Shown: positions 27,851-38,266 of the stretch, piece by piece
Position numbering within the stretch: the stretch's first letter is position 1
Layout of the letters: the number at the start of each line of letters is the position of its first letter
From: an uncultured Pseudomonadota bacterium
GTDB taxonomy: Bacteria; Pseudomonadota; Gammaproteobacteria; Ga0077536
Direction: 5' to 3'
Assembly (NCBI GenBank): GCA_903825645.1
Contig: CAIKBL010000039.1
Coordinates: 1 to 38,332 of the forward strand
DNA length: 38,332 nucleotides
Notes under the pieces: model-generated
Database searches by the model: none
Seen by the model: the letters and a program-made list of their open reading frames with translations, nothing else
Told to the model about the DNA's origin: nothing
Made by a program: the position numbers and the translations under genes

Positions 27851-28408
27851 TTATTCACCGGATCGGGAACGGTCGTGCGCTGATACGGAAGCACGCTCCG
27901 CTCCCGGCATGAGTTCTTCCAGCTCACCTAGCTCGCGGGCGACGGCCAGGCCAATTTCGGTCAACTCATGCTGCGCTTGCCCAACGTCATCCAACTTCTC
28001 CTGGAACTCGCGCAGGACCTGCTGAAGCGCTTGTTTTTTGGTGGACATCTGTGTCGCCGTGGCGAGCAGGTGTGCATAGCGACTCCGCAGTCTTTTTTCC
28101 CGCGCTACAAAGGCATCCTGATACCGCACACGGATGCGCTCGGCACTGTGCCGAAGTTGTGCCTCGGCACGCGCCTGTAGAAGCTGCGCCTGCCGATGTA
28201 ACTGCAGATCTGCACGCTTTCGCTCGGCTGTCCGCATTTCTTCGAGAAAACGCCGCAGGCGCCCCCCGAGCTCCCGGGAAAGTCGCGCAAAGGTTTCGTT
28301 CAGTGCCTCGTCAGCACCGAAGAACACGCCATCAGGTGCCATCGCCGAACACGGCGCCTGTGCCGCATCTTCACCAACATTAGGCGTGGCGTCCTCATTC
28401 CTATCCAT
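27851..28408 (-). CDS. Hypothetical coiled-coil protein
   Basis: A 185-aa protein with no signal peptide. Residues 1-30 look disordered; residues about 35-165 are a long charged helix (Arg, Glu, Gln, Ala and Leu rich) with heptad-like spacing, predicted as coiled coil; the last 20 residues are Ser/Arg-rich. The second of two adjacent ATGs, at 28408, best fits the GAGGGAG ribosome site. Residues 58-100 align without gaps to residues 416-458 of the cNMP/rhodanese protein at 35872-37455 (14 of 43 identical by hand). A scaffold role is possible, but no function can be given. Its end is 2 bases from the convergent CoA-transferase stop. Confidence 0.68.
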   Translation of the reverse strand: MDRNEDATPNVGEDAAQAPCSAMAPDGVFFGADEALNETFARLSRELGGRLRRFLEEMRTAERKRADLQLHRQAQLLQARAEAQLRHSAERIRVRYQDAFVAREKRLRSRYAHLLATATQMSTKKQALQQVLREFQEKLDDVGQAQHELTEIGLAVARELGELEELMPGAERASVSAHDRSRSGE

Positions 28409-28669
28409 CATCGTCTCCCTCTTGGATGACTTAATCCGCCCAATCGTCCCTTTGCCCAACTAAAGCGGGTTGCGATTGTATCGCGCAACGCAGGTTCCAA
28501 CTTGCCTCGAGGATTGTCTATCCGTGGGCCGGATGTCGCTGCGCGCCGGAAACCGACGGGACAGTATCACATGCCCCACGGCGTCTGCCGGTGGCGGGCA
28601 GTAGGCTCATTTTCCTATGATAGCGAACCGCCGGTCCGACGCCGGCCCCCTAGCCATTGAGGTTTTCGC

Positions 28670-35030: not shown

Positions 35031-35840
35031 CTAATCGGCCGGGGCATCAAACACGACAACCGGGCCACCACGGCCGAGTCCGAGGATCGTGGCCGCGTGT
35101 TGCTCGGCACACGCAATCTCGAGCACCTCGACGGAATTGATAAGCGCCAGTAGCGAGCCTGGCGCGACATCCGCATAGGTCCGGTAAAGCCGAATATCAT
35201 GGCCGGCCGCGCGCACGATCGGGCGCCGGAATTCCACGAGATCACGATGCTCAATATTCGTGATGAGATTTCCGAAGTGATCGGTCGTGATCACCATGCC
35301 GTGCAGTTCATGGCCTCGCCAGGCTGCAGGCTCTACGAGGGAAGGGATATACTCAGTAGTCAGCCGACCCAGCGCCCGCGGAGAGACGCGACCTGACGCC
35401 AGTTCCGCCGCTAGCGGCGCGAAAAGGTCGCGTCCATGAAAGGTCGCGCTGAGCCTGTCGATCCCGAGCGGGATGAGGCGCCGTGGTTCAACAGCTATCG
35501 CTGAACCCCCAGTACGGGTAATCACACCCGCGAGGAGCCCGTTATCCGGTGCGATAAACAGGTGTCCATCGCCCTCAACCAGAAGGACGTCGCGGGCAGT
35601 TCCAACCCCCGGATCGACCACCGCCAGATGAACTGAACCGGGCGGAAAGTACCGGTACGATCGCTCTAGCCAGAAACCCGCCTCTGCAGGCCAATGCACA
35701 TGCGATTCATGCGTGAGATCGACAATCCTCACGGTCGGGAAGCGCGACAGCATCACGCCCTTCATCACCCCTGCGAAAGGGCCACGATGACCGAAGTCAG
35801 TCGTGAGCGTGACAACCCCCGAAGGCTTAAATTCATTCAT
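35031..35840 (-). CDS. SAM hydrolase / SAM hydroxide adenosyltransferase (DUF62)
   Basis: DUF62-family enzyme of 269 aa, expected to convert S-adenosylmethionine and water to adenosine and methionine. Motifs are TLTTDFGHRGPFAGVMKGVM, DLTHESHVHWPAEAGFWL, VDPGVGTARDVLLVE, FIAPDNGLLAG and ATFHGRDLFAPLAAELASG, followed by the C-terminal ITTDHFGNLITNI block. These match the non-halogenating relatives of the fluorinase. The start at 35840 gives a 31-base gap after the upstream gene; an ATG at 35912 would overlap that gene by 41 bases and add a non-conserved leader. The upstream cNMP/rhodanese gene is on the same strand and probably co-transcribed, so SAM turnover may be tied to its signal; this is inference. 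Confidence 0.88.
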   Translation of the reverse strand: MNEFKPSGVVTLTTDFGHRGPFAGVMKGVMLSRFPTVRIVDLTHESHVHWPAEAGFWLERSYRYFPPGSVHLAVVDPGVGTARDVLLVEGDGHLFIAPDNGLLAGVITRTGGSAIAVEPRRLIPLGIDRLSATFHGRDLFAPLAAELASGRVSPRALGRLTTEYIPSLVEPAAWRGHELHGMVITTDHFGNLITNIEHRDLVEFRRPIVRAAGHDIRLYRTYADVAPGSLLALINSVEVLEIACAEQHAATILGLGRGGPVVVFDAPAD

Positions 35841-35871: not shown

Positions 35872-37455
35872 TCATCCGCCGGCAACGTCGATGGTGTGGT
35901 GCTCCACATCAACGGTCGGCGCTACCGATGCGCGCGGCTCCGCCGCCTGCACGACCCGCAACATACCGGCCGCTGCCCCGCCTGACACCGGCTCGGAATG
36001 TTGCAGCTCCTGACTCCACAGGAGTCGTTGCTGTTGCGCCACCTTACGTTTTAGTGCGAGGAGTTGCCGATGTTTTGACTCGAGTTCTGCCAGGTAGCGT
36101 CGCTCAACTTCCTGCACGGCGTGACTCACTTGGGCATCGAGCTCTGCGCGCAACAGGGCAATGGCTTTGCGGAGTCGCCGCTGGTAACGCTGGCGCTCCG
36201 CTGCACGTAGGGTGTCGAGTGCGCTTTTCGGCGCCTCCTGGCGAGTAGACACGTCAGGATCTTCTTGACACCTCGACGAGGCGCCGTCCTCTTCATCTTC
36301 AACCGCGACCGGCCTCGTCATGGGGGCCCCTGCCTGCAAGGTCGTCTCCAAAGCGTCAAAGAAATCGCTACCGCTCGGCGGCGCTATCGAGACGAAGGGC
36401 TCATTGAGACAGTAAGCGTCGTGCCCTGAGAGGCTCAGCATGAAGTTGCCAAGCGCATTGCCGCCGGGTGTATCGCCGAACACCACATAGCGTGATTCGG
36501 GAGACAGACCGGTTGCACGCAATCGCAGAATTTGCAACGGGACGTTAATAGCCCCGGGAATTGATCCGCGATTGAACTGCACCGCCTCGCGCATATCAAG
36601 CCAAATAGCACCATCCGCGACCATCGTTTCCGCCGCCAAGCGCATGACCGGCCGCACATACGCAGGTACGATAAAGCGTTTCAAATCGACCTGCTTGATG
36701 CGCACCAGCTCACCGTCGGTTTCCATTCGAACGGTCGCCCGACGGGAATCACCTGAGAGCAGCGCTTCTTCTCCAAAAAAATCCCCGGGACCCAGCACGC
36801 TGACTCCACGCCGAAGCGTGCCTTCGGCTTCCACATCCACTGAAGCGGTACCGGCCTTCAAAATAAAACAAGCGTCTGCCTCGCGGCCTTGGACCACGAC
36901 GAACTGTCCCTCATGCACGGGCATGTAATCGACGCGCTGCAGAAGACCCTGAATCGCCGATGGCGCTAAGCGCGAAAGGATTCCGATTGAAAGCGCCAGC
37001 TCGAGCCCGTCCGCATCGTCTGAGCTTCCGAGCTCGGCGACGTCAGGCAAGGAAGACGACATGAGGTTCGCGAGATTCACATAACGCCCGAGGGCCACGA
37101 CGGGGATTCGGAAAATGGTCGCCTCAGAGAGTGCGCGCGCGCTCAGGCAGCGACGGCCCGGGAAATGAAAGCATTCCAACACAAGCGCCGAAGCCTCCGC
37201 CTCGAACTCGTGCACCTGACCTTCGATCCCGGTCGTCGTTATCTTGCCTTTGACAAGATAGTAAACCCAGTCTCGAGCGCGCTCACCCGTGTAAAAGACC
37301 GCGCCACGCACGATCGTCTCCGTTTCACCTGCAGCCAGTACTAAAGTCTGCTGTGCAGGAGACAGATCTCGCACGAGCGGGAGCCGGGGTCCCACAAACT
37401 TGCCATCGAAGACGTGTTCGGGGCCCGCCGGACTGCCCGAATCCCTGATCTGCAT
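35872..37455 (-). CDS. Cyclic nucleotide-binding, rhodanese-like, coiled-coil multidomain protein
   Basis: A 527-aa soluble protein. Residues about 40-130 form a degenerate cNMP-like domain (YYLVKGKITTTGIEGQVHEF). Residues about 175-265 form a second domain with a good phosphate-binding cassette: FGEEALLSGDSRRATV with Gly228-Glu229 and Arg239. Residues about 275-355 match rhodanese (IWLDMREAVQFNRGSIPGAI, NVPL), but the active-site loop reads VVFGDTPGGNA with Asp328 where catalytic members have Cys, so sulfurtransfer is unlikely. A low-complexity acidic linker leads to a coiled coil (about 412-485) and a variable tail. The start at 37455 has GGAG 9 bases ahead; the frame opens further upstream. 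It probably senses a nucleotide and signals through the coiled coil. Confidence 0.85.
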   Translation of the reverse strand: MQIRDSGSPAGPEHVFDGKFVGPRLPLVRDLSPAQQTLVLAAGETETIVRGAVFYTGERARDWVYYLVKGKITTTGIEGQVHEFEAEASALVLECFHFPGRRCLSARALSEATIFRIPVVALGRYVNLANLMSSSLPDVAELGSSDDADGLELALSIGILSRLAPSAIQGLLQRVDYMPVHEGQFVVVQGREADACFILKAGTASVDVEAEGTLRRGVSVLGPGDFFGEEALLSGDSRRATVRMETDGELVRIKQVDLKRFIVPAYVRPVMRLAAETMVADGAIWLDMREAVQFNRGSIPGAINVPLQILRLRATGLSPESRYVVFGDTPGGNALGNFMLSLSGHDAYCLNEPFVSIAPPSGSDFFDALETTLQAGAPMTRPVAVEDEEDGASSRCQEDPDVSTRQEAPKSALDTLRAAERQRYQRRLRKAIALLRAELDAQVSHAVQEVERRYLAELESKHRQLLALKRKVAQQQRLLWSQELQHSEPVSGGAAAGMLRVVQAAEPRASVAPTVDVEHHTIDVAGG

Positions 37456-37615: not shown

Positions 37616-38266
37616 TCAGGTGTTCTGGTCCACTTTACCTGCCAGCGCCCGGTATCCCGCTGCCATGAACGGAATCAATCGGGCGTAGATAACTTCAAGT
37701 TCGCTGGCCCGGCAGACCCCTTCCGATAGCAGGTCAATGCGCCCGGTCTCCGCAAACGTCATCGTCATCCCCCCCAGCAGGAAGTGGAAGCCCCAGTATA
37801 GATCGCGTGACGTTAATCCGGGGAGCGCTTTTCGCATGCCCACGATAAAAAGTTCGGCCACCGGATCAAAAAGCGCTGACATGACAACCTGCGTCCATCG
37901 GGCGGAATTCGCCGTTTGCGCGATGAGCCGCGCATAGTCCTTCCAACCCGGCCCGCCGTGAACGCTTTTCTCTAGATAAGGTCGGGCAAATGCATCAATC
38001 AGGTTTTCAACCGACGGCATAACCGGCAGTTCGCTGAACCGCTGGCGGCGCGCGTCGTTGATTTCGCTGGCCCGACGCCGGATGACGGCGACGTAAAGCT
38101 CTTTTTTCGGTCCGAAATGATAGTTCGCCAGCGCAAGTTCGACCCCTGCCGCGGCCGTAATGTCCCGCAGCGACACCCCATCGAAGCCTCGTTCGGCAAA
38201 CAAGCGCTCAGCGGCATCCAAAATGCGTTGTTTGGTCGGCAGCCCGGGCGACAGCGGTGCGGTCAT
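37616..38266 (-). CDS. TetR-family transcriptional regulator
   Basis: A 216-aa regulator. The N-terminal helix-turn-helix is TKQRILDAAERLFAERGFDG, then VSLRDITAAAGVELALANYH and FGPKKELYVAVIRRR (about 11-65), a canonical TetR DNA-binding domain. The C-terminal ligand-binding half is helical, with KDYARLIAQTANSARWTQVV followed by LFDPVAELFIVGMRKALPG, resembling regulators of fatty-acid or xenobiotic metabolism. A 16-bp imperfect palindrome sits 15 bases upstream of its start, so it probably represses itself. The regulated target may be the divergent gene off the right edge or catabolic genes in this window. The frame has no strong ribosome site. Confidence 0.9.
   Translation of the reverse strand: MTAPLSPGLPTKQRILDAAERLFAERGFDGVSLRDITAAAGVELALANYHFGPKKELYVAVIRRRASEINDARRQRFSELPVMPSVENLIDAFARPYLEKSVHGGPGWKDYARLIAQTANSARWTQVVMSALFDPVAELFIVGMRKALPGLTSRDLYWGFHFLLGGMTMTFAETGRIDLLSEGVCRASELEVIYARLIPFMAAGYRALAGKVDQNT

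Follow-up and report, generated by a model that had tools for sequence, protein, structure and literature searches.

Bacterial receptors for cAMP and cGMP are best known as transcription factors. In eukaryotic signalling, the regulatory subunits of PKA and the kinase PKG carry two cyclic-nucleotide-binding (CNB) domains in tandem, and the second of these has a phosphate-binding cassette of the form FGE(x)AL...R-x-ATV. Within such a cassette, the Glu and the Arg hold the ribose and the phosphate. A bacterial CNB domain for which non-transcriptional regulation has been proposed is found in the family 2B encapsulins, and rhodaneses occur as accessory genes of family 2A encapsulin operons (PMC8346489). 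A rhodanese-homology domain that is non-catalytic and serves docking is described in the MAP kinase phosphatases, as their CH2 (Cdc25/rhodanese homology) domain (PMC8622459). Our literature searches on the domain order CNB-CNB-rhodanese found no description of it, and prior publication is possible, for example in the 2023 survey of the rhodanese superfamily by Burroughs and Aravind that is cited in PMC12419801.

Here we describe a protein with this domain order, encoded in a window of 38,332 nucleotides (the whole stretch of DNA that was analysed) from an uncultured gammaproteobacterium. Its open reading frame lies on the minus strand and encodes 527 amino acids, and since the ATG at 37455 and the stop codon at 35874-35872 are both confirmed, the span 35872-37455 assigned to it by an earlier, sequence-only reading is correct. 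From the frame, Pfam and a structure model, the protein is laid out as CNB1, CNB2, pseudorhodanese and helix. Pfam recognizes PF00027 (cNMP_binding; E-value 8.6e-20, 71 bits against a cut-off of 27.5; two stretches at E <= 0.1, with the position printed only for the best, CNB2) and PF00581 (Rhodanese; 1.8e-6, 28.7 bits against a cut-off of 22.2), and no other family up to E 0.1. The NCBIfam cut-offs were reached by none of the five proteins searched, namely the target, three relatives and the neighbouring SAM hydrolase; the encapsulin model matches only the CNB stretch of the target, scoring 23.7 bits where its cut-off is 400. An AlphaFold2 model built from 43 sequences has a mean pLDDT of 81.6 and a pTM of 0.53, so that the arrangement of the domains is uncertain; the domain limits used here (CNB1 about 26-134, CNB2 146-267, rhodanese 270-352) are our own reading of that model. 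Three full-length orthologues of the same genus retain the architecture at 44-50% identity to the target, and a fourth, without CNB1, at 37%, which argues that it did not arise by chance.

In the PDB, the best structural and sequence match to the target is the tandem CNB region of the PKA regulatory subunits and PKG, although the target has no kinase domain, its CNB1 has no cassette, and a rhodanese and a C-terminal helix stand there instead. The rows of the structural alignment fall mostly within residues 146-342, and the fold comparison barely covers CNB1 and the tail. With the rhodanese domain of CoADR-RHD (3icr) the target has the fold in common, but Gly327 stands where the catalytic Cys would be, and the target lacks a reductase domain. 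The CH2 domain offers a works-like analogy only, being eukaryotic and fused to a phosphatase. Proteins of about 350 amino acids belong to the same family and have the same domain order, but they keep an intact CDTGRRS-type loop and end without a tail, whereas the target has lost the Cys and added a helix. A transcription factor of the Crp/Fnr type was considered and rejected, as Pfam finds no HTH up to E 0.1 and a rhodanese and a long helix come after the CNB domains; that no DNA-binding or enzymatic output domain is present had been proposed from the letters alone, and up to the same E-value Pfam agrees.

We propose, with a probability of about 50%, that the target is a cytoplasmic, cyclic-nucleotide-responsive adaptor of a non-enzymatic kind, with a dead rhodanese as relay and a helical output. 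CNB2 would bind cAMP or cGMP made by the class III cyclases of the genome, and the movement driven by the nucleotide would pass through the catalytically dead rhodanese, acting either as a rigid module or as a docking one, and reach the long conserved helix at the C-terminus. This helix may then self-assemble or pair with another helical protein. The function guessed at in the sequence-only reading is in this light a reasonable one. Non-transcriptional receptors would gain a further, large family, in which CNB sensors are joined to a (pseudo)rhodanese and a helical output.

The target shares its domain order with a group of proteins that we define here as the CNB-CNB-rhodanese family, and it can be aligned with them from CNB1 through the rhodanese. 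Beside the short members, long members carry extensions of 120-1252 amino acids, some of them cut by the ends of loci. Of the 25 genomes from the taxonomic family of the source, 21 encode proteins of this order. A search of 40 relatives gave matches with E <= 0.001 in 33, some of them on the CNB alone; true family members, by our own threshold of a best E below 1e-15, occur in 29 of the 40 genomes, those 21 included. Among 200 sampled genomes of the phylum, there were 18 matches with E <= 1e-25, and 14 of these, the source's own genome included, span both CNB and rhodanese. A scan of genome contigs with a pattern that contained FGE gave 316 matches, of which the best 80, representing 79 loci, were kept, and because they were ranked by likeness to the target they are not a random sample; by title they are mostly Gammaproteobacteria MAGs, and Methylohalomonas lacus HMT 1 is a named strain among these best 80 of 316. 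After duplicates of scanned loci, the copy of the window itself (L001) and one membrane-like protein with a single CNB (L033) had been dropped, 110 rows were counted. A unique architecture is thus ruled out, the order being widespread in Gammaproteobacteria and present elsewhere in the phylum, and the suggestion of the sequence-only reading that the combination is unusual does not hold in view of the 21 of 25 and 14 of 200 genomes. What is restricted is only the Cys-less form with the helix, not the CNB-CNB-rhodanese order. By its sequence, the target has diverged within a large, widespread and little-studied bacterial family. The dropped protein (L033, 4571-5986), from the same genome as the source, is 471 amino acids long and combines one CNB-like segment with hydrophobic segments that look membrane-like. 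Two further loci among the best 80 of 316 (L071 and L114) are titled as Klebsiella pneumoniae MAGs; the family members there are nearest to those of uncultured Gammaproteobacteria, and the titles look like mislabelling.

CNB2 (residues 146-267; 36655-37020, minus strand) is, by PF00027 and by fold, a complete cyclic-nucleotide-binding domain, which aligns structurally with the CNB domains of PKG and PKA at a Z of about 17 and an rmsd of 1.7-2.1 over 113-128 residues. Its phosphate-binding cassette FGEEALLSGDSRRATVRM (residues 227-244; 36724-36777, minus strand) includes Gly228, Glu229 and Arg238, and aligns as FGEEALLSGDSRRATV with FGELALIYGTPRAATV of PKA RI-beta; the FGE...RRATV motif that had been read from the letters is confirmed at residues 227-242. 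Across the 110 family members, the Gly and the Arg are present in 110/110 and the Glu in 107/110. The Glu counts for the 79 scanned loci are inflated because the scan pattern contained FGE; in the 20 rows obtained without any pattern, the Arg is kept in 20/20 and the Glu in 17/20. CNB1 (residues 26-134; 37054-37380, minus strand) shows strands at 44-118 and a helix at 119-135 in the model, aligns by fold only within tandem CNBs and at high rmsd, and has no FGE...R cassette in the alignment of residues 88-117. The earlier count of two cNMP domains is right in that both are present and the second is intact, but the first is a degenerate CNB without the phosphate-binding cassette and is likely structural. 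Through CNB2, the target probably binds cAMP or cGMP.

A candidate source for such a ligand is present, the genome having three class III cyclases (PF00211) above the cut-off. A class III cyclase is found in 29/29 genomes that bear the family and in 4/11 of those without it (Fisher p = 1.8e-5), and by genus in 17/17 with the family versus 3/8 without (p = 0.001); only class III was searched, membership follows our own threshold, and both ancestry and genome size confound the association. The cassette might also have been kept for folding or for some other ligand, in a constitutive structural scaffold without any cyclic-nucleotide switch, as some solved CNB proteins hold other ligands, such as the PKA-R homologues with guanosine or inosine. 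We regard this as unlikely, as the cassette residues Gly, Glu and Arg show no variation across an alignment of 43 rows with a mean identity of only 27%, and almost none in the 110.

The rhodanese-fold domain (residues 270-352; 36400-36648, minus strand) is supported by Pfam and by its fold, with residues 263-361 of the model matching CoADR-RHD at a Z of 15.4 and an rmsd of 1.8 over 99 aligned residues. At the position of the catalytic Cys stands Gly327 (codon 36477-36475), in a loop YVVFGDTPGGNA that equals YVVYCDTGRRSS in length and aligns with it without a gap. The catalytic Cys is present in 85 of the 110 family members and absent from 25, and it is missing in all 15 members of the target's clade; a rhodanese without its catalytic Cys is what the sequence-only reading had seen in this protein. 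In a tree built without the active-site columns, the target falls inside this 15-member clade with an SH-aLRT support of 99, and two changes are enough to account for the loss of the Cys, where 500 shuffles gave a mean of 22.9; the tree is of a quick kind with SH-aLRT supports only, and several rows drew long-branch warnings. The second Cys-less clade, separate from that of the target, consists of 10 long proteins with Ser at the Cys position, as in YVLYSNSGGRA (L084, L085, L094, L099, L127 and five further loci). These two losses form a natural experiment in the turning of an enzyme domain into a signalling module.

Both losses fall in a part of the tree that is rich in C-terminal extensions, a half whose support is 88, with an open fork. 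Tails of more than 100 amino acids are found in 22 of the 25 Cys-less members, while the 85 members that keep the Cys divide into 46 with short and 39 with long tails; put the other way, the Cys is kept in 46 of the 49 rows with tails of 100 amino acids or less. The three short-tailed Cys-less rows were all counted, although two (L041 and L039) are cut by contig ends and the third (L032) is a split gene with a coiled-coil gene adjoining. Over rows, the association has a Fisher p of 1.8e-4, which ignores ancestry, and an independent-pairs test on the tree yields 4 pairs and a p of 1, and so has no power; the link between the loss of the Cys and the long tail therefore rests on two events.

Between the rhodanese and the C-terminal helix lies a linker (residues 353-407; 36235-36399, minus strand) of low model confidence and poor conservation. 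The helix itself (residues 408-486; 35998-36234, minus strand) is single, conserved and basic, with 17 K/R and 9 D/E, and AlphaFold2 predicts it as uninterrupted, with a pLDDT of about 95 over most of its length. Identity of the target to the three full-length orthologues of the genus is 60-63% over the helix (408-480), which puts the helix level with CNB2 (55-60%), while the rhodanese reaches 51-54% and the linker drops to 10-20%; to the protein without CNB1 (G003), the values are 44% for the helix, 45% for CNB2, 33% for the rhodanese and 15% for the linker. Conservation at this level shows that the helix is under selection. A contrast fitted to a single heptad register gives p = 0.93 for the target and 0.32, 0.32, 0.12 and 0.02 for the four orthologues. 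Averaged over the five genus sequences, the hydrophobic spectrum has its maximum at 3.75 residues with a power of 0.60, where 95% of the shuffle maxima lie below 0.50, and has a power of 0.14 at 3.5; in five sister proteins of the wider clade the peak is at 3.5. The long coiled coil of the sequence-only reading thus stands as a long conserved helix that may or may not be a classical heptad coiled coil, and on these values we prefer to call the tail of the target a long interaction helix, with a coiled coil as a possible form.

Just downstream of the target, after a gap of 31 bp, lies a gene for a SAM hydroxide adenosyltransferase (SAM_HAT) of the (R)-SAM hydrolase type (35031-35840, minus strand; Pfam and NCBIfam), which in NCBIfam is related to (R)-SAM hydrolases but below the equivalog cut-offs. 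For one DUF62 enzyme, selective hydrolysis of (R,S)-SAM is described in PMC12120602, as possibly not its physiological function. The target could be a dedicated regulator or scaffold of this enzyme, switching the breakdown of SAM or (R,S)-SAM by cyclic nucleotides. The 3' end of the CNB gene adjoins SAM_HAT in 6/6 genomes of the genus, with gaps, taken from coordinates, of 40 bp (G002), 37 bp (G004), 67 bp (G005) and 65 bp (G003) beside the 31 bp of the window; in G001, where a contig end breaks the CNB gene, the adjacency is seen on the contig with its tail. Upstream, 160 bp from the target, is a TetR regulator (37616-38266, minus strand; Pfam), which precedes the CNB gene in the window, G001 and G003. 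In two other genera (L056, L066) TetR adjoins SAM_HAT directly, with no CNB gene between them, and in a third (L067) a single ORF separates them, so that either this genus gained the CNB gene between the two or the other genera lost it. Adjacency may, however, reflect co-transcription only, and in the nine genomes outside the genus that have SAM_HAT, the flanks covered, of about 1.5 kb or less, contain no CNB-rhodanese gene; dedicated control of the hydrolase is, on balance, rather improbable. Upstream of the orthologue in G004, a stretch with a partial TetR match (L036, 8408-8632; 48.8% over 79 residues) is possibly a decayed copy of the TetR in the window.

In the proposed cyclic-nucleotide-responsive adaptor, the helix may meet a partner encoded in the same window. 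A stand-alone helical protein (27851-28411, minus strand), to which the sequence-only reading had already pointed, shares homology with the coiled-coil tails that sister CNB-rhodanese proteins carry, with a best match of 1e-7, and is a candidate partner. Its counterparts in G002, G004 and G005 lie in longer open frames of 361-401 amino acids. The N-terminal half of the G004 counterpart is weakly like the CNB1 of the target (2.4e-4 and 8.2e-4 in two comparisons), and better like the CNB1 of a paralogue on contig C27 (4.2e-6). The gene in the window comprises only the helical C-terminal half, and sister species (L150, L151, L152) carry a protein with a CNB1-like part and a coiled coil. At a sister locus of the source genome, a CNB-CNB-pseudorhodanese gene has a separate coiled-coil gene adjoining, and sensor and coiled coil as two adjacent genes suggest separable partners; judged from such homologies, helical tails acting in trans are plausible. 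A bolder scheme would make the Cys-less rhodanese a dead signal-relay module that arose at least twice in lineages with helical tails, and would have the cyclic-nucleotide-gated scaffold of this genus gate the SAM hydrolase through a helix that would, in addition, pair with separate helical proteins, the 27851 protein among them, a logic like that of PKA-R without the kinase. As a whole this is doubtful, and we offer it as speculation.

That the rhodanese is still an enzyme, through a shifted Cys or another nucleophile, is very improbable. A Cys does stand one residue before the catalytic position, at the end of the strand, in 9 of the 15 members of the target's clade, but the same Cys is found in 17 of the 85 members that also have the catalytic one, and the loop in this clade shows neither an indel nor a conserved CxxGxR. 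The target itself carries Phe at that place, giving Phe-Gly. An intact Cys shifted in the alignment, a possibility that the sequence-only reading had raised, is rejected on these grounds. Least probable of all is a decaying gene without function, for which the long branches in the target's clade and the missing CNB1 in two genomes of the genus (G001 and G003) could be cited, but the frame is open, identity to the full-length orthologues is 44-50%, and both the cassette and the helix are conserved.

Elsewhere in the family, other gene neighbourhoods recur. At nine loci (L092, L074, L095, L131, L148, L091, L143, L087 and L073), two long CNB-rhodanese-coiled-coil genes form a divergent pair; AAA and VWA_CoxE genes lie close to the pair in 9/9 and a DUF520 (YajQ) gene in 8/9, and the divergently paired proteins are possible heteromeric partners. 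Short members with an intact Cys have genes for an ammonium transporter, P-II, shikimate dehydrogenase and rRNA adenine dimethylase as neighbours in 22-25 of 84 loci (among them L129, L096 and L082; one representative of each gene type was checked by Pfam), so that cyclic nucleotides may have some connection with nitrogen genes.
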